In this document: piece after piece, positions 3,125 through 49,040 of the stretch | Numbering within the stretch: position 1 is the stretch's first letter | Layout of the letters: each line of letters opens with the position of its first letter | From: an uncultured Oscillospiraceae bacterium | GTDB taxonomy: Bacteria; Bacillota; Clostridia; Oscillospirales; Oscillospiraceae | Direction: 5' to 3' | Assembly (NCBI GenBank): GCA_944385415.1 | Contig: CALWXC010000007.1 | Location: forward strand, 1-64,000 | Length of the DNA stretch: 64,000 nt | Program-made: the position numbers and the translations under genes | The notes under the pieces: model-generated | Told to the model about the DNA's origin: nothing | The model's database searches: none | What the model saw: the letters and a program-made list of their open reading frames with translations, nothing else

Positions 3125-3545
3125 GAAGCGGCCGGGGGTTTCGCGCCTTGCGAGGCGCGGGTGTTTCGCCCGTTGCGGCGGGCGACCGGGGCTTTGCCCC
3201 TGGACCCCACGATTTTTTGAAAAAAATCGAGTAAAACTTTTATATGTTGGGATGATTTTTATGATTTGGTGCGCTGCCACTGAATCGGTGCGGGAATGCA
3301 CGCAATCCATGCTTCGCATTGTTGCGGTGAGAGGGCCTCCGGCCCCTCAGCCCCGCCGGAACCGGGTTCCGTATGCTCTCGTAGGGCGGGACCTATGTGT
3401 CCCGCCGCTGGTATGCACCAAAAACCACCGGATGGACCGAAATGTTCCGACCCGTAGGACGGGGGCTTGCCCCCGCCGCCGGTACGGGCCATCGATCATG
3501 ATGGACGTAGAGGCCGGCATCCCTGACGGCCCCGGACGGGCCGCG
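3125..3545 (+). repeat. Composite intergenic repeat between divergent genes
   Basis: Reading on the plus strand there are two UGCG-loop hairpins (stems CGCGCCT/AGGCGCG and CGCCCGT/CGGGCG type), GGGGCtttGCCCC, the CGATTTTTT/AAAAAAATCG inverted repeat, AGTAAAACTTTT, module M1 (3289-3358), a GGCGGGAC/GTCCCGCC hairpin, a GGGGGC/GCCCCC hairpin and a GGCC...GGCC hairpin with loop GGCATCCCTGA. This copy lies between two gene 5' ends, so it is not simply a transcription terminator. Confidence 0.75.
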
Positions 3546-4863: not shown

Positions 4864-5014
4864 TTTCGCTGGCTGCGGCCAGCGGGGATTTCGCCCGTTG
4901 CGACGGACGGGGGTGTTTCGCGCCGTGCGCGGCGCGGGTGTTTCGCCCGTTGCGACGGGCGGGGAGTGTTTCGCGCCGTGCGCGGCGCGGGTGTTTCGCC
5001 CGTTGCGACGGGCG
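4864..5014 (+). repeat. Tandem array of six UGCG-tetraloop hairpins
   Basis: Six units of 25-28 bp follow one another. Each is TTTCG, a 7-bp stem, loop TGCG, the complementary stem, and a G-rich spacer. Stems include CGCTGGC/GCCAGCG, CGCCCGT/ACGGGCG and CGCGCCG/CGGCGCG, so the sequence changes but the pairing stays. One unit has a mismatched stem (ACGGACG). The array lies 19 bp after an AI-2E-family gene and leads into GGGGCtttGCCCC and the CGATTTTTT hairpin. Confidence 0.85.
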
Positions 5015-8010: not shown

Positions 8011-8170
8011 AAATCGCGGAGTCCAGGGGGCGGCGCCCCCGGTCGCCCGTCGCAATGGGCGACATCCCCGCGCCTCGCAAGGCGCGAAACTCCCCCGTTC
8101 TTCTTTACACCACCGCGCTTTTTTGGTATGATAAACAGTACGATTACAAAAGAGAAAGGAATTTCTTTTT

Positions 8171-9928
8171 ATGGAAAAGTTATTGGATTTGATTTCGGCG
8201 ACGGTGTCGGGCGCATTTGCGGCGGCGGGCTATGACGGGGCATTGGGCCGGGTGACGGTGTCGAACCGTCCGGACCTGTGCCAGTTCCAGTGTAACGGGG
8301 CCATGCCGGCGGCGAAGCAGTACCGGAAGGCGCCCATCGCCATCGCCAATGAGGTGGTGGCCCAGCTGCAAACGGACGAGATGTTCTCCAAGGTGGAGGC
8401 GGTCAACCCCGGTTTCATCAACCTGAACCTGTCGGAGACGGCCCTGGCCGATTACGTGGGCCGGATGAAGCAGGACAGCCGGTTCGGCGTGCCGCTGGCG
8501 GAGAAAGAAAAGACCATCGTCATCGACTACGGCGGCCCCAACGTGGCCAAGCCCCTGCACGTGGGCCATCTGCGTTCGGCCATCATCGGTGAGAGCATCA
8601 AGCGGATTTACCGGTATTTCGGCCATAAGGTCACGGGCGATATCCACATGGGCGACTGGGGCTTGCAGATGGGCCTGATTATCGCGGAGGTCCAGGAGCG
8701 TCACCCGGAGCTGCCCTACTTCGACGACAGCTTTACGGGCGAGTACCCCAAGGAGCCCCCGTTCACCATCTCCGAGCTGGAGGAGATCTACCCTGCTGCC
8801 AGCGCCAAGTCCAAGGTGGATGCAGCCTTTGCGGAAAAGGCCCATACGGCCACCTACCTGCTGCAAACGGGCAAGCGGGGCTATCAAGCCATGTGGGACC
8901 ACATTATGGCCGTGTCCGTGGCGGATTTGAAGAAGAACTACGCCAAACTGAACGTGGAGTTTGACGCCTGGCTGGGCGAGAGCGACGCCCAACCCTTTAT
9001 CGAGCCCATGCTGGCCGATATCAAGGAAAAGGGCCTGTGCCGCGAGAGCGAGGGCGCGTTGGTGCTGGACGTCCAGGAGGAGACGGACACCAAGGAGGTG
9101 CCGCCGTGCATTCTGGTGAAGTCCGACGGCGCGACGCTGTACGCCACCACCGATTTGGCCACCCTGGTCCAGCGGGAACGGGACTTCCACCCGGACAAGG
9201 TCCTCTATGTGGTGGACAAGCGCCAGAGTTTGCATTTTGAGCAGGTGTTCCGCGCCGCCCGCAAGGCCGGAATTGTGCGTCCGGAGACGGAATTGCAGTT
9301 CCTGGGCTTCGGCACCATGAACGGCAAGGATGGAAAACCCTTCAAGACCCGCGAGGGCGGCGTCATGCGTCTGGAGCGGCTGATCCGCGAGGTGACGGAG
9401 TTCGTCTATGCCAAGATTCAGGAGAACAACATTGTCGAGGGCGACGCGGCCATGGAGACCGCCGGGAAAATCGCCCTGGCCGCGCTGAAATACGGCGATC
9501 TGTCCAATCTGGCCACCAAGGATTATATTTTTGATCTGGACCGTTTCTCCGCCTTTGAGGGCAACACCGGCCCGTATATTCTCTATACCATCGTGCGCAT
9601 CAAGTCCATCTTGAGCAAGTACCAGGGCGACGTGTCCGCCGCGACCATTCAGCCCGCCGCCAACGACGCCGCCCGGGATCTGATGCTGGCCCTGACCCGC
9701 TTTGCCGACAATCTGATTCTCTGCTGCCGCGACAGCGCCCCCAACATCCTCTGTGCCTATATTTACGAGCTGGCCGGTTACGCCAACAAATTCTATCACG
9801 AGACGAAGATTCTCACCGAAGAGGACCCCCAGAAGCAGGCCGGTTACATCGCCCTCATCGATCTGACCCGCGCCGTCCTGGAACAGTCCATCGACCTGCT
9901 GGGCTTCAGCGCACCCGAGAAGATGTAA
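8171..9928 (+). CDS. argS: Arginine--tRNA ligase
   Basis: The 585-residue class I synthetase charges tRNA-Arg with arginine in the cytoplasm. The N-terminal additional domain (about 1-105) is followed by the catalytic core with DYGGPNVAKPLHVGHLRS, where HVGH at 130-133 is the HIGH signature, and GDIHMGDWGLQMG. The substrate-binding YATTDLATL and FGTMNGKDGKPFKTREGG (KMSK-equivalent) segments are present. The C-terminal DALR anticodon-binding domain begins near residue 460. It lacks nothing expected and has the usual length. The start ATG lies after AGAAAGGAATTTCTTTTT. It is a monocistronic gene between two repeat blocks. Confidence 0.97.
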   Translation: MEKLLDLISATVSGAFAAAGYDGALGRVTVSNRPDLCQFQCNGAMPAAKQYRKAPIAIANEVVAQLQTDEMFSKVEAVNPGFINLNLSETALADYVGRMKQDSRFGVPLAEKEKTIVIDYGGPNVAKPLHVGHLRSAIIGESIKRIYRYFGHKVTGDIHMGDWGLQMGLIIAEVQERHPELPYFDDSFTGEYPKEPPFTISELEEIYPAASAKSKVDAAFAEKAHTATYLLQTGKRGYQAMWDHIMAVSVADLKKNYAKLNVEFDAWLGESDAQPFIEPMLADIKEKGLCRESEGALVLDVQEETDTKEVPPCILVKSDGATLYATTDLATLVQRERDFHPDKVLYVVDKRQSLHFEQVFRAARKAGIVRPETELQFLGFGTMNGKDGKPFKTREGGVMRLERLIREVTEFVYAKIQENNIVEGDAAMETAGKIALAALKYGDLSNLATKDYIFDLDRFSAFEGNTGPYILYTIVRIKSILSKYQGDVSAATIQPAANDAARDLMLALTRFADNLILCCRDSAPNILCAYIYELAGYANKFYHETKILTEEDPQKQAGYIALIDLTRAVLEQSIDLLGFSAPEKM

Positions 9929-9934
9929 GGAAGC

Positions 9935-10160
9935 CTGGTGCAAGGGGATTTCGCTGGCTGCGGCCAGCGACCGGGGGCGCCGCCCCCTGGACCCCTGCGA
10001 TTTTTTGAAAAAAATCGAGTAAAACTTTTCAATTTGGGGATTTTGAGTTGTTGAGTGGTTTGGTGCGGTGCCGCTGAATTTGTGCGGTAAGGTTCTCAAT
10101 CCATGCTTCGCATTGTTGCGGTGAGAGGGCCTGCGGCCCCTCAGCCCCGCCGGAGGGTTG
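9935..10160 (+). repeat. Composite intergenic repeat after argS
   Basis: It contains one UGCG hairpin (CGCTGGC/GCCAGCG), GGGGGC/GCCCCC, the CGATTTTTT/AAAAAAATCG inverted repeat without the 161-nt insert, AGTAAAACTTTT, and module M1 at 10095-10155. Confidence 0.8.
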
Positions 10161-10829: not shown

Positions 10830-10919
10830 GGCCGGGGGTTTCGCCCACTGCGACGGCCGGGGGGATTTCGCGCCGTGCGCGGCGCGACCGGGGGCGCTGC
10901 CCCCTGGACCCCACGATTT
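10830..10919 (+). repeat. UGCG hairpins after the DUF2148 gene
   Basis: One decayed hairpin (CGCCCAC TGCG ACGGCCG) and one intact hairpin (CGCGCCG TGCG CGGCGCG) are followed by GGGGGCGCTGCCCCC and the left half of the CGATTTTTT hairpin, into which the 161-nt element at 10920 is inserted. Confidence 0.75.
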
Positions 10920-15414: not shown

Positions 15415-15625
15415 CTCCCGGCGGGGCTGAGGGGCCTTTGGCCCTCTCACCGCAACAATGCGGAGCATGGATTGAGCGCGTTCCCGCACAAATTCGGCGG
15501 CACAGCACCAAACCACTAAATCAATCCCAAACTTTAAAAGTTTTACTCGATTTTTTTCAAAAAATCGCGGAGTCCAGAGGCAGGGCCTCTGGTCGCCCGC
15601 CGCAGCGGGCGAAATCCCCGCCACA
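15415..15625 (-). repeat. Composite intergenic repeat after the aldose-epimerase-like gene
   Basis: It holds module M1 (15420-15488), the CGATTTTTT hairpin without an insert, an AGAGGC/GCCTCT palindrome and one UGCG hairpin (minus strand, stem CGCCCGC/GCGGGCG). It ends 11 bp from the stop of the gene at 15636. Confidence 0.8.
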
Positions 15626-18300: not shown

Positions 18301-18372
18301 AAATCTCAGGGGTCCAGGGGGCAGCGCCCCCGGTCGCCCGTCGCAACGGGCGAAACTCCCCTACCGCACCGA

Positions 18373-21799: not shown

Positions 21800-22080
21800 T
21801 CGGTAACCGGCATATCCCGGCGAATCCGTACACCCCCATCGACCAAATCCCCGGCGGGGCTGAGGGGCCGGAGGCCCTCCCACCGCAACAATGCAAAGCA
21901 TGGATTGAGGGCGTTACCGCACTCCTTCCAGCCCGCCGCACCAAACCAATATAAAATCCCAAACTTAAAAGTTTTACTCAATTTTTTTCAAAAAATTGCA
22001 GGGGTCCAGGGGGCAGCGCCCCCGGTCGCCCGCCGCAGCGGGCGAAATACCCGCGCCTCGCAAGGCGCGAAACTCCCCCT
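21800..22080 (-). repeat. Composite intergenic repeat between apbE and rnfC
   Basis: It contains module M1 (21853-21922), the CGATTTTTT-type hairpin (here with one substitution, CAATTTTTT/AAAAAATTG, keeping the pairing), GGGGGC/GCCCCC and two UGCG hairpins on the minus strand (CGCCCGC/GCGGGCG and CGCGCCT/AGGCGCG). It ends just after the apbE stop. Bases 21623-21800 hold no gene that I can support. Confidence 0.8.
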
Positions 22081-24805: not shown

Positions 24806-24927
24806 AAATCGCAGGGGTCCAGGGGGCAGCGCCCCCGGTCGCCCGCCGCAGCGGGCGAAATCCCCGCGCCTCGCAAGGCGCGAAACTCCCGCTGGCCGCA
24901 GCCAGCGAAACACCCTATACAGGCCCC

Positions 24928-26959: not shown

Positions 26960-27272
26960 GCACAGGCTGCCCAAATGGTCCGCAGGGCGGGACCTGCGTG
27001 TCCCGCCGCTGGTGCGCACCATCATACAAACCGCCCTGGGGCATTTACGGAACTCCGGCGCAACAGAAGGCCGCCGTCCACCCCCCACTGACGGGGTGGG
27101 TCCGCCGCCCTTGGGGCGGACGCCCCGGGGATTGCGCCATCTGCGGATGGCGCTTTGGGACGATAGGGGATTTCGCGCCGTGCGCGGCGCGGGTGTTTCG
27201 CCCGCTGCGGCGGGCGACCGGGGCTTTGCCCCTGGACCCCAGAATTTTTTCGAGAAAAAATTCAGTAAAAGC
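26960..27272 (+). repeat. Composite intergenic repeat with degenerate CGGCC cassette
   Basis: It holds a GGCGGGAC/GTCCCGCC hairpin, a degenerate copy of the AAGGCCGCCGTCC cassette (27070-27160) with GCGCCATC-TGCG-GATGGCGC, two UGCG hairpins, GGGGCtttGCCCC and a variant of the core hairpin, GAATTTTTTCGAGAAAAAATTC, which still pairs. Confidence 0.75.
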
Positions 27273-29679: not shown

Positions 29680-29738
29680 CGGCCCCGGACTTACATAGCA
29701 CCAAATGATAAAAGTTTTACTCAATTTTTTTCTTGTGA

Positions 29739-29899
29739 GGGCCACCCACCGTCCGTGTGTCTGCGGTGCTCGCCGGGCCTTTTCCGCCATGCCTGCGGTG
29801 CGGCTTCTTGCCATACATCCAGTATGGCTGCGAAACCACACCTTGGCCTGACGCAAAATTCCTCGCCGACCACTCTTGCCAACGAACGGCGGGCAGCCC
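29739..29899 (-). repeat. 161-nt structured element, copy 5
   Basis: This is a full-length copy. On the minus strand GGGCTGCCCGCCGTTCGT pairs with ACGGACGGTGGGTGGCCC over all 18 positions. Positions 13 (G.U to G-C) and 14 (C-G to U-A) changed together with their partners. The central stem is GGTGTGGTTTC/GAAGCCGCACC. Confidence 0.85.
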
Positions 29900-30256
29900 A
29901 AATCGCGGAGTCCAGAGGCAGCGCCTCTGGTCGCCCCGCGCACGGGGCGAAGCCGTAACCGTTTCGTAGGACGCGGCATCCTTGACGCGTCCATGGCGCA
30001 TTCCGTCCGGGGCCGTCAGGGATGCCGGCCCCTACGCCAAGCGGAATAGATGGTCCCCGCCGTCCACCCCCACAGGGGCGGCGGCGGGGACCATGGCCTT
30101 TGGCCGGGGGTTGCGCCCGTTGCGACGGGCGCTTGGGACGATGGGGGATTTCGCCCGCTGCGGCGGGCGGGAGTTTCGCGCCGTGCGCGGCGCGACCAAA
30201 GGCTCTGCCTTTGGAAACCGCGATTTTTTGAAAAAAATCGAGTAAAACTTTTATCT
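29900..30256 (+). repeat. Composite intergenic repeat
   Basis: From the left: AGAGGC/GCCTCT and one UGCG hairpin (both minus orientation), a GGACGCG/CGCGTCC hairpin with loop GCATCCTTGA, a GGGGCCG...CGGCCCC hairpin, a CCCCGCC/GGCGGGG segment, GCGCCCGT-TGCG-ACGGGCGC, two more UGCG hairpins (CGCCCGC and CGCGCCG stems, plus orientation), AAAGGC/GCCTTT and the CGATTTTTT hairpin with AGTAAAACTTTT. Confidence 0.75.
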
Positions 30257-31859: not shown

Positions 31860-32303
31860 GGTTCGTAGGGCGGGACCTGTGTGTCCCGCCGCCGGTTTGC
31901 ACCATCCCATATGCGGAATGCCGGTTGATTCCACCCCGCCGCCGTGCCGCACTGCCGGCCACCACCGGCGTAGGGGCCGGCATCCCTGACGGCCCCGGAT
32001 GGGGTGCGGCGTGGGCGCGTCAAGGATGCCGCGCCCTGCGAACGCGACGGACTGCCCTGCGTTGTTTGTTGGGCGGGTACGTCATCGGACGCGGTACGAC
32101 ATAAGGCCGCCGTCCGCCACCCGCTTTGGGGTGGGGACGGCGGCCTTCGGCTTTGCCGGGGATTGCGCCATCTGCGGATGGCGCTATGGACGACTGGGGA
32201 GTTCGCGCCGTGCGCGGCGCGGGTGTTTCGCTGGCTGCGGCCAGCGGGAATTTCGCCCGCTGCGGCGGGCGACCGGGGCTTTGCCCCTGGACCCCGCGAT
32301 TTT
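31860..32303 (+). repeat. Composite intergenic repeat with the AAGGCCGCCGTCC cassette
   Basis: It holds a GGCGGGAC/GTCCCGCC hairpin, GGGGCCG/CGGCCCC (loop GCATCCCTGA) and GGGCGCG/CGCGCCC (loop TCAAGGATGC) hairpins, a 140-bp cassette (32050-32190) with AAGGCCGCCGTCC...GGACGGCGGCCTT and GCGCCATC-TGCG-GATGGCGC, then UGCG hairpins with stems CGCGCCG, CGCTGGC and CGCCCGC, and GGGGCtttGCCCC. Confidence 0.75.
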
Positions 32304-34189: not shown

Positions 34190-34347
34190 ACAATCTAAGA
34201 CTGGTAGCTGTAACGAAGTGCTGCGCGCACGGGCTGCAACTATCACTCGGCTTTTGCAGAGTGTTTCAAACCATAGCCATAGTGGCGGTTTGAAACATTT
34301 TTTGTTATCCGAGGCGTGTTGTTCTCAGTCATTAAGGAGGAACTATC
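34190..34347 (+). promoter_or_regulatory. Structured ssnA leader with internal terminator
   Basis: GGTAG (34203) can pair with CTATC (34240), enclosing GTGC-TGCGC-GCAC. CACTC (34244) pairs with GAGTG (34258). Then GTTTCAAACC (34263-34272) pairs perfectly with GGTTTGAAAC (34287-34296) followed by ATTTTTT, a strong intrinsic terminator ahead of the gene. The 3' arm of the second hairpin abuts the terminator, so mutually exclusive folding is possible. It fits none of the riboswitch consensus sequences I know. Confidence 0.55.
34263..34303 (+). terminator. Terminator within the ssnA leader
   Basis: A 10-bp perfect stem, GTTTCAAACC/GGTTTGAAAC, is followed by ATTTTTT. Confidence 0.8.
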
Positions 34348-35688
34348 ATGTACTTATTGACAAACGGCAGACTCATCACCCGGGACCCGGAGCATCCCTA
34401 TTATGAAAAGGGTGCAGTGGTCTTTGACGGCCCCTCCATTGTGGCGGTGGGCGAGGAAGCGGCGCTGCGGACGGCGTATCCCCAGGCGGAGGTCATCGAC
34501 GCCAAGGGCGGCGTCATCATGCCGGCGTTCATCAATGCCCATACCCACATCTATTCGGCGCTGGCCCGGGGCCTGTCCATCAATGGCTACAATCCCACCA
34601 ATTTTTATGAGGTGCTGGACGGCATGTGGTGGAACATTGACCGCCATCTGACGTTGGACGGTACCAAGGCATCGGCCGACGCCCTCTATCTGGACTGCAT
34701 CAAGCAGGGCGTCACCACCATTTTTGACCATCACGCTTCGTTCTGTGAGATTCCCGGCTCGTTGCAGCGCATTGCCGAATCGGCCAAGGAATTCGGTATC
34801 CGCTCCTGCCTGTGCTATGAGGTCTCCGACCGGGACGGCGAGGACAAGGCTTTGCAGGCCATCCAGGAGAACGCCGATTTTATCACCTGGTGCGAAACGG
34901 AAAAAGACCCCATGCTGGCGGCCATGTTCGGCGGTCACGCCTTGTTCACCATCTCCGATAAGACCTTCGAGCGGATGGTGGCGGCCAACAATGGCCGGAC
35001 CGGCTACCATATCCATGTGTCCGAGGGCATGAACGACGTGTACGACAGCCTGCAAAATTACGGACGCCGTCCGGTGCAGCGGCTGCAGGACCATGGCATC
35101 CTGGGCCCCAAGACCATCCTGGGCCATTGCATCCATGTAAATACGGCCGAAATGGAGATCATCCAGGAGACGGGCACCATGTGCGTCAATAACCCCGAAT
35201 CCAATATGGGCAACGCCGTGGGCTGCTCCCCCATTTTGCAGCTGATGGCCCGGAATATCCTGGTGGGCCTGGGTACCGACGCCTATACCAATGATATGCT
35301 GGAATCCCTCAAGGTGGCGCTGACCATCCAGCGGCATAACGCCTGCATGCCCAATGTGGGCTGGTGCGAGGTCACCAAGATGCTGTTTGAGAATAACGCC
35401 AAGATCGGTGAAAAGTACTTCCATACTACCCTGGGCGTCCTGAAGCCCGGCGCGTCTGCCGATATCATTGTCATGGATTATAAGCCGTTCACGCCGTTCT
35501 CCGGCGATAATATCGACGGCCATATGATTTTCGGTATGACAGGCCGCCAGTGCCAGACCACCATTGGCAATGGTAAGATTCTCATGAAGGACCGGGAGCT
35601 GGCCGGCGTGGACGAGGAAGCCGTCAACGCCCATATCCTGGAGGAGTCCAAGAAGCTGTGGGGCGAGCTGAACCACACAACTTATTAA
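34348..35688 (+). CDS. ssnA: SsnA-type aminohydrolase
   Basis: The 446-residue protein belongs to the metal-dependent amidohydrolase superfamily, SsnA branch. The metal site is seen in NAHTHIY (residues near 61-67), the YHIHVSEG histidine, GHCIHVN and the aspartate in GLGTDAYTNDM. NPESNMGNAVG is typical of the SsnA/guanine-deaminase group. ssnA occurs with ygfK, xdhD, hyuA and ygeX/Y/W in anaerobic purine and urate breakdown clusters; the reaction itself is not settled. The start follows TAAGGAGGAACTATC. The leader carries a terminator, so expression is probably conditional. ygfK follows after a repeat block. Confidence 0.92.
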   Translation: MYLLTNGRLITRDPEHPYYEKGAVVFDGPSIVAVGEEAALRTAYPQAEVIDAKGGVIMPAFINAHTHIYSALARGLSINGYNPTNFYEVLDGMWWNIDRHLTLDGTKASADALYLDCIKQGVTTIFDHHASFCEIPGSLQRIAESAKEFGIRSCLCYEVSDRDGEDKALQAIQENADFITWCETEKDPMLAAMFGGHALFTISDKTFERMVAANNGRTGYHIHVSEGMNDVYDSLQNYGRRPVQRLQDHGILGPKTILGHCIHVNTAEMEIIQETGTMCVNNPESNMGNAVGCSPILQLMARNILVGLGTDAYTNDMLESLKVALTIQRHNACMPNVGWCEVTKMLFENNAKIGEKYFHTTLGVLKPGASADIIVMDYKPFTPFSGDNIDGHMIFGMTGRQCQTTIGNGKILMKDRELAGVDEEAVNAHILEESKKLWGELNHTTY

Positions 35689-35738: not shown

Positions 35739-35963
35739 ACAGCGGCGGGACACATCGGTCCCGCCCTACGAGACCATACGGACCCGCTCCCGGCGGGGCT
35801 GAGGGGCCTTTGGCCCTCCCACCGCAACAATGCGAAGCATGGATTGAGTACCTTACCGCACAAATTCGGCGGCACCGCACCAAATCCATATAAAACCCCA
35901 ACATTAAAAGTTTTACTCGATTTTTTTCAAAAAATCGCGGAGTCCAGAGGCAGGGCCTCTGGT
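35739..35963 (-). repeat. Composite intergenic repeat between ssnA and ygfK
   Basis: It holds GGCGGGAC-ACATCG-GTCCCGCC, module M1 (35792-35860), AAAAGTTTTACTCGA, the CGATTTTTT hairpin without the insert and AGAGGC/GCCTCT. Confidence 0.75.
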
Positions 35964-36088
35964 CGCCCCGCGCACGGGGCGAAATACCCGCCCGTCGCAA
36001 CGGGCGAAACACCCGCTGGCCGCAGCCAGCGAAACCCCCGCCCGCCGCAGCGGGCGAAACACCCGCCCCGCGCACGGGGCGAAATCCC
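35964..36088 (-). repeat. Tandem array of five 25-bp UGCG hairpins
   Basis: Five units of exactly 25 bp follow each other. On the plus strand each is a 7-bp stem, loop CGCA (UGCG on the minus strand), the complementary stem, and GAAAYNCC. The stems are CGCCCCG/CGGGGCG, CGCCCGT/ACGGGCG, CGCTGGC/GCCAGCG, CGCCCGC/GCGGGCG and CGCCCCG/CGGGGCG, all perfectly paired. The array ends about 20 bp before the ygfK ribosome site. Confidence 0.9.
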
Positions 36089-43659: not shown

Positions 43660-44082
43660 CTCGTAGGGCGGGACCTGCGTGTCCCGCCGCGCCGTACCGG
43701 GTGGCGTTGACTGGCGTATGGGGGCGAAACCGTAACCATTTCGTAGGACGCGGCATCCTTGACGCGTCCATGGCGCATTCCATCCGGGGCCGTCAGGGAT
43801 GCCGGCCCCTACATTCCGGATGGCTGATGGTGCGTACCGGCGGCACACACAGGTGCCGCCCTACGAACACGGACGAACTGCCCCGCATGGTTTGGGGGGC
43901 GGGTAAGTCATCGGACACGGTACGACATAAGGCCGCCGTCCACCACCCGCTGACGGGGTGGGGACGGCGGCCTTCGGCTTTGCCGGGGATTGCGCCATCT
44001 GCAGATGGCGCTTTGGGACGCTTGGGGTATTTCGCCCGCTGCGGCGGGCGACCAAATGCTCTGCCTTTGGAAACCGCGATTT
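43660..44082 (+). repeat. Composite intergenic repeat
   Basis: It holds GGCGGGAC/GTCCCGCC, a GGACGCG/CGCGTCC hairpin (loop GCATCCTTGA), GGGGCCG/CGGCCCC, GGCGGCAC-ACACAG-GTGCCGCC, the second copy of the AAGGCCGCCGTCC cassette (43870-44015), one UGCG hairpin (CGCCCGC/GCGGGCG) and AAAGGC/GCCTTT-like sequence. Confidence 0.75.
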
Positions 44083-48654: not shown

Positions 48655-49040
48655 TTTAGGGGCCGGCATCCCTGACGGCCCCGGATGGAATCCGTTCCGG
48701 ACGCGTCAAGGATGCCGTGTCCTACCAACTGGGTACGCATTCGCCACGGCACGGCGGTCATCGGTTCCCAAACCCGCACGGACGGACTGCCCCGTATGGT
48801 TTGCGGGGCGGGTACGTCATCGGACGCGGTACGCGACATAAGGCCGCCGTCCACCACCCGCTGACGGGGTGTGGACGGCGGCCTTCGGCTTTGCCGGGGA
48901 TTGCACCATCCGCGGATGGCGCTTTGGACGCTGGGATATTTCGCGCCTTGCGCGGCGCGGGTGTTTCGCCCGTTGCGACGGGCGACCGGGGCTTTGCCCC
49001 TGGACCCCAGAATTTTTTCGAGAAAAAATTCAGTAAAAGC
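48655..49040 (+). repeat. Composite intergenic repeat upstream of ptsI
   Basis: It holds GGGGCCG/CGGCCCC (loop GCATCCCTGA), GGACGCG/CGTGTCC (loop TCAAGGATGC, one G.U), the third copy of the AAGGCCGCCGTCC cassette (48783-48930), two UGCG hairpins with slightly imperfect stems, GGGGCtttGCCCC and GAATTTTTTCGAGAAAAAATTC. Confidence 0.75.

Follow-up and report, generated by a model that had tools for sequence, protein, structure and literature searches.

A BOX/BIME-like composite intergenic repeat built from tandem fixed-loop hairpin cassettes in Candidatus Avoscillospira

The 64,000-nucleotide stretch analyzed here, referred to below as the window, comprises positions 1 to 64,000 of contig CALWXC010000007.1 (assembly GCA_944385415.1) from an uncultured Oscillospiraceae bacterium. 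It carries many short hairpins with the loop TGCG, which stand alone or in tandem between genes. The focal array lies on the minus strand at 35964-36084 and holds five units, and a six-unit array lies on the plus strand at 4864-5014; both are located where the initial annotation had placed them. The arrays of the window are given below, each unit being named by the inner four bases of its stem.

1204-1224, minus: single CCGC unit
3139-3184, plus: two units, GCCT and CCGT, the second with one T.G mispair
4864-5014, plus: six units, TGGC, CCGT, GCCG, CCGT, GCCG and CCGT, one foot with a G-to-A change, then a GC hairpin and AT arm
8044-8089, minus: GCCT and CCAT/ACGG (one A.C mispair); 161-nt element in the tail
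9949-9969, plus: single TGGC unit after the arginyl-tRNA synthetase gene at 8171-9928
10866-10886, plus: single GCCG unit; 161-nt element in the tail
15594-15614, minus: single CCGC unit
18335-18355, minus: single CCGT unit; 161-nt element in the tail
22027-22072, minus: GCCT and CCGC
24840-24910, minus: TGGC, GCCT and CCGC; 161-nt element in the tail
27132-27216, plus: leader CATC, then GCCG and CCGC
29932-29952, minus: CCCG, left arm of the two-armed element at 29709-30250; 161-nt element in the tail
30111-30194, plus: CCGT, CCGC and GCCG, right arm of the two-armed element at 29709-30250
32163-32271, plus: leader CATC, then GCCG, TGGC and CCGC; 161-nt element in the tail
35906-35937, minus: AT palindrome arm of the focal array, AAAAGTTTTACT plus CGATTTTTTTCAAAAAATCG read on the plus strand; the "empty" form of the 161-nt insertion site
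35944-35962, minus: GC hairpin in the tail of the focal array, of the CCAGAGGC-CCT-GCCTCTGG type, then ACTCC
35964-36084, minus: focal array of five 25-bp TGCG units, in sense order CCCG, CCGC, TGGC, CCGT and CCCG
43990-44050, plus: leader CATC, then CCGC; variant 161-nt element in the tail
48939-48984, plus: hybrid GCCT/CGGC unit (arms of two types), then CCGT

An ssnA RNA motif (RF03031) is found at 34198-34245, upstream of an amidohydrolase gene at 34348-35688. This RNA and one tRNA are the only Rfam families reaching the gathering score in the window; the arrays have no match, and their assignment to a known RNA family is rejected.

Hairpins of this kind are real and far above chance. With the loop not chosen beforehand, the window contains 59 perfect hairpins with a 7-bp stem and a 4-nt loop, of which 35 have TGCG (20) or CGCA (15) as the loop, and no other loop exceeds four; simulated first-order Markov windows yield on average 5.5 such hairpins and 0.07 with either of these loops. 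Together with about four units that contain one mispair, these 35 exceed the initial claim of at least 25. Across the whole source genome, CGCNNNNTGCGNNNNGCG is found 271 times, as compared with 7 times for the reversed-pattern control, and in the first 820 kb, 109 of 116 matches to the looser format TTCGC-4-4-4-GCG with a paired core have TGCG as their loop. The arrays are unevenly spread over the source genome: among the matches listed, C2-C4 (150-224 kb) have 1, 1 and 2, and C1, C5, C7 and C8 (111-230 kb) have dozens.

The repeating unit is 25 bp long and has the form GGNN-TTTCGC-NNNN-TGCG-N'N'N'N'-GCG. Covarying base pairs had been described along the whole 7-bp stem; the covariation is genuine, but the CGC/GCG foot is fixed, so that variation is confined to the inner 4 bp and takes the form of about seven discrete stem types (CCGC, GCCG, TGGC, CCGT, CCCG, GCCT and the leader type CATC, plus a rare GCTC) rather than free variation. 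About 95% of the units (653/686) match a stem type perfectly, despite 6% divergence of the flanking DNA, in a catalogue whose templates favor near-perfect units; the loop counts for the window, the first 820 kb and the G105 genome considered below are free of that bias. The mispaired units are often hybrids whose left arm belongs to one type and right arm to another, as in CCGC-TGCG-GCCA and GCCT-TGCG-CGGC. Array statistics here and below rest on 1.22 Mb of the source genome and 1.22 Mb of its relatives, from loci that partly overlap and with arrays de-duplicated; all genomes compared are metagenome assemblies.

The units are embedded in a larger composite element, in which a leader hairpin (CATC) is followed by one to six TGCG units at a 25-bp period, a GC hairpin and an AT palindrome arm. 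The leader sits 38-40 bp upstream of the remaining units. The GC hairpin adjoins the 3' side of the array and occurs in four covarying types (GGGGG/CCCCC, GGGG/CCCC, AAAGG/CCTTT and AGAGG/CCTCT); in tails throughout, the five bases that follow (ACCCC, ACTCC or AAACC) can be predicted from its type. Behind the GC hairpin, the AT palindrome CGATTTTTTGAAAAAAATCGAGTAAAACTTTT is either intact or carries the 161-nt element. The latter always lies within the inner AT palindrome of the tail, between CGATTT and AAAAAAATCG, for example at 29728-29905. Many elements are two-armed, with one minus-strand and one plus-strand array facing outward around a REP-rich center that often contains GTAG palindromes. 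As had been proposed at the outset, the hairpin family is associated with gene ends as well as with the 161-nt element, and the orientation of the TGCG loop relative to the 161-nt element is the same in 43 of 43 cases.

None of the 79 catalogued arrays overlaps a gene, according to our own codon-usage-based gene calls; all are intergenic. For the 74 arrays with both flanking genes available, these genes are convergent in 32 cases, co-directional in 41 and divergent in one, in contrast to 73 convergent, 229 co-directional and 120 divergent background gaps (convergent versus divergent, p = 2e-11). An excess between convergent genes of the kind that marks BOX-type repeats is therefore present (32/74 arrays versus 73/422 intergenic gaps, p = 4e-6). 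These elements prefer gene ends and avoid divergent promoter regions. It had been noted that the hairpins often follow directly after a stop codon. This is true, but they do so more strictly on the opposite strand: of 74 arrays, 58 point their tail (3') at a stop codon and 47 their head. The distance from tail to stop codon is mostly 55-90 nt, or about the length of the tail itself.

The fixed loop had suggested a family of exceptionally stable UNCG RNA loops displayed on one sense strand, and we considered whether the closing pairs, strand energies and loop orientations fit such a reading. The extra-stable cUNCGg fold requires a C-G closing pair. The TGCG loop conforms to UNCG when read on one of the strands, yet only CCGC, TGGC and CATC supply this pair, and CCGT, GCCG, GCCT and CCCG close with G-C or T-A, so that four of the seven types fail. 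With the Vienna parameters, the two strands have equal stability in four of eight stems (the seven plus GCTC) and differ by only 1.8 kcal/mol in the other four. UNCG stability as an organizing rule is rejected on these two grounds. In addition, the mirrored arms of two-armed elements place both UGCG and CGCA loops on one strand, and within 150 nt of an array-facing stop codon 94 units read CGCA on the mRNA of that gene, as compared with 46, behind stop codons at the array head, that read TGCG. The initial annotation had named equal numbers of CGCA loops on the predicted sense strand as a refutation, and by this measure the count speaks against its reading. Because the mRNA side of stop codons carries mostly CGCA, and because two-armed elements present both loops on either strand, a UNCG-based RNA device loses its basis, and the tempting view of fixed UGCG loops as RNA stabilizers is corrected.

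A further feature of the arrays concerns the stems of neighboring units. Tandem repeats normally grow by self-copying, so that neighbors are alike. Among 272 pairs of neighboring units 25 bp apart, however, none has the same stem, whereas about 52 such pairs are expected by permutation (10.1 in the source genome and 41.9 in relatives), and a stem is repeated anywhere in the array in 12 of 170 arrays versus 67 expected. Identical neighbors are predicted to form a single near-perfect hairpin, favored by 12-16 kcal/mol over two separate hairpins, because UGCG also pairs with UGCG. Near-twins are less affected: CCGC-CCGT neighbors, with a predicted misfold of 6.5 kcal/mol, are mildly depleted (12 observed, 18.6 expected), and GCCG-GCCT neighbors are depleted more strongly (1 observed, 7.3 expected). 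Exact identity matters most, which fits loss through slippage or palindrome cleavage. We considered collapse of identical repeats during assembly as a cause of their absence; this is countered in the source assembly by four retained perfect tandem duplications with periods of 23-28, and it is possible for the CALWWW assembly, which has none in 610 kb.

The avoidance of like neighbors also bears on whether the arrays function in RNA. If arrays were transcribed and acted at mRNA 3' ends as stacks of exonuclease-blocking or attenuating hairpins, unlike stems would allow each hairpin to fold alone. The position of arrays at gene ends, their rarity at promoters and the almost mutation-free cassette sequences are as this explanation would have it. 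All units are predicted to fold locally in 86 of 144 real arrays, as compared with 50 when units are dealt at random and 65 (60-71) under the no-identical-neighbor rule; in our folding model, this excess fits selection for independent folding. The focal array shows strong RNA folding, with z = -8.4 (minus strand) and z = -8.2 (plus strand). Its predicted minimum-energy structure, however, is not the five independent hairpins originally described: units 1 and 5 and units 2 and 4 match, and the whole nests into one long hairpin. The focal array is therefore itself predicted to misfold, and the CCGC-CCGT combination, for which misfolding is predicted as well, is still encountered 12 times.

Single mispairs also count against an RNA role. 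They comprise 15 G.T and 12 A.C (p = 0.70), and therefore the wobble tolerance that selection on RNA should produce is seen on neither strand, so that RNA selection acting through wobble asymmetry is rejected. Between 29600 and 36400 of the window, no array shows the intrinsic-terminator signature of a GC hairpin directly before a T-tract. The lack of wobble bias and of T-tracts lowers the case for an RNA role at 3' ends without removing it, and two-armed elements with both loop orientations on one strand and frequent closing pairs other than C-G weigh further against it. We regard the RNA explanation as unlikely overall, if the most credible of the alternatives. Apart from the hairpin units, the empty AT palindrome may serve as a bidirectional terminator.

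Comparison between relatives indicates how arrays change. In 34 orthologous arrays with flanks 94% identical, the string of units is the same in only two; there are 42 matching units, 15 substitutions and 39 gains or losses, each of a complete 25-bp unit. The type of GC hairpin and the presence of the 161-nt element can switch together with the 3' block. Empty and filled orthologous sites from close species place the junctions in the AT palindrome AAAAGTTTTACT-CGATTTTTTTCAAAAAATCG-AGTAAAACTTTT, and filled sites carry its inner 20 bp twice, a duplication that is equally compatible with insertion and with deletion between direct repeats. Several orthologous pairs (arrays 25, 42 and 55) suggest a CRISPR-like addition of units next to the leader, which we do not claim because in other pairs the differing units sit at the tail or midway along the array. 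The near-perfect state of the cassettes amid this turnover could reflect purifying selection for function, instead of youth or homogenization.

Of seven genomes of the genus, three carry the TGCG-unit format, all Candidatus Avoscillospira: the source (271 units), Candidatus Avoscillospira avistercoris (DVJJ, here G244; 254 units) and the metagenome-assembled genome CALWWW (G138; 575 units). Of 394 genomes sampled in the order, the other 393 lack the tandem pattern. Phages, plasmids and viral contigs have no match to the units, and carriage by phage or plasmid is rejected. We found no description in the literature of tandem fixed-loop hairpins in Oscillospiraceae. One tandem-unit match comes from a goat metagenome-assembled genome labeled Bacteroidales (L109, JAFPYT010000071.1) and may reflect binning contamination or transfer.

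A second genus of the family (G105, loci L184-L191) has a related mosaic with TGCG loops and other stems (ACTC, TCAT and CGCT), including 6-8-bp examples such as CACCGTC and CGCGAC. Among its 4-nt-loop hairpins, again with the loop not chosen beforehand, 21 have CGCA or TGCG, and every other loop occurs at most once. This comparison bears on whether the family needs a function or a recognizer at all, since old palindromes might stay perfect through template-switch (quasipalindrome) correction together with concerted exchange, with the loop fixed through descent from few founders. The discrete stem types common to several species, the hybrid units and the symmetric G.T and A.C intermediates would all follow from such a process. 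The G105 genome, however, has the same loop on wholly different stems, none of them a founder type, which argues that the loop, and not stem ancestry, is what is kept. An origin from founders and correction alone thus appears quite improbable to us.

We suggest, as an account that we hold to be slightly better than an even bet, that the hairpins form the repeating cassette within a composite intergenic repeat of the BOX/BIME kind that has no coding function, that cassettes recombine, and that dispersal is non-autonomous. Cassettes would be exchanged or lost through the shared 13-bp linker GCGGGNNTTTCGC by recombination or slippage, and exchange through this linker would carry stems intact. The hybrid units are the kind of scar that recombination would leave when the exchange falls inside the loop, not in the longer linker. 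Identical neighbors, which form a near-perfect palindrome of about 45 bp, would be lost fastest. Because the loop is fixed while the stem is free, we infer a putative factor that would use the loop to recognize the hairpin when it is extruded or single-stranded, in analogy to TnpA-REP proteins, for which the loop and structure, not the stem sequence, matter in some groups (PMC8266576). Dispersal would be selfish or near-neutral, with any effects on mRNA 3' ends secondary. No transposase, TIR/IS partner or demonstrated target-site duplication was found for the element.

A further reading concerns the difference between neighbors itself. Every hairpin would have to differ in stem from those next to it, so that a putative protein that reads the loop (TGCG/CGCA), with the stem serving as structure only, meets a row of independently folding, orthogonal hairpins. 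We consider this distinctness rule doubtful; if true, it would make the exchange and loss of units a working recombination system on folded DNA, beyond simple slippage. Across about 250 arrays in three species, identical neighbors are wholly avoided while whole cassettes exchange quickly. The family thus offers a natural, countable test of how identical palindromes are removed, whether by slippage, palindrome cleavage or a folding constraint, and of whether the loops of mobile hairpins are read by proteins.

The element is a new BOX/BIME-like composite repeat, and it resembles several known systems in part. Mitochondrial double-hairpin or repetitive hairpin elements have stems that vary and covary. 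They are also dispersed short hairpins, but they are organellar and have neither tandem mutually distinct units nor a composite element at gene ends. BOX elements are closest in architecture and distribution. Those of S. pneumoniae and S. suis are composite (A-Bn-C) and intergenic, and the number of their tandem hairpin modules varies; they are enriched between convergent genes, differ in array length between strains and are probably non-autonomous parasites (PMC3049150). The leader-(TGCG unit)1-6-GC hairpin/AT arm order provides the same fixed end modules around variable tandem middle modules, along with the convergent-gene bias, a likeness of architecture from which we claim no descent; we expect no sequence relation to boxA, boxB or boxC. 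In contrast to BOX, the module here is a perfect 25-bp hairpin with about seven stems and one loop whose neighbors are never identical, the element has two outward-facing arms, and no TIR/IS partner was found. A MITE would have terminal inverted repeats and a target-site duplication made by a known transposase. Filled sites here show inverted AT arms and the inner 20-bp palindrome in duplicate, which could stem from insertion or from deletion, and no transposase partner was found.

With the BIMEs and REPs of Enterobacteria and their RAYT proteins, the element shares high-copy extragenic palindromes in mosaics in which unlike units alternate (PMC2817692, PMC8266576, PMC3733652), as well as a hairpin with a variable stem, the loop of which is read by protein in some REP groups (PMC8266576). 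We considered whether the units form a REP family in the strict sense, mobilized by the RAYT (TnpA-REP) proteins of these genomes. The palindromes are short, intergenic and clustered, a Y1_Tnp gene is present, and GACG (CGTC on the other strand) follows the foot of leader CATC in about 148 cases. However, only 2 of 686 units have a GTAG tag within 12 nt, the CGTC-like GACG is found mainly beside the leader unit, the stems are perfect, and the same-orientation tandem arrays are unlike the usual head-to-head REP dimers. The RAYT gene of the source genome and the two inspected from G138 carry palindromes of another family (GTAGGG...) inside or beside them, and TGCG units are neither within these genes nor immediately next to them. 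This association of the Y1_Tnp genes with GTAGGG palindromes leads us to reject RAYT ownership of the TGCG units, and a REP family proper seems very improbable.

Three Y1_Tnp (RAYT-like) genes, at L172:9672-10160 (source C2, ~75.67-76.16 kb), L173 at ~9.9-10.4 kb and L174 at ~9.6-10.2 kb, contain GTAG-tagged palindromes of a different family in each case (GGCATCCYTGACG, GGGACCTGTGTGTCCC and GGGGGCTTGCCCCC). These internal palindromes match REP families dispersed in the same genomes, including the centers of the elements studied here.
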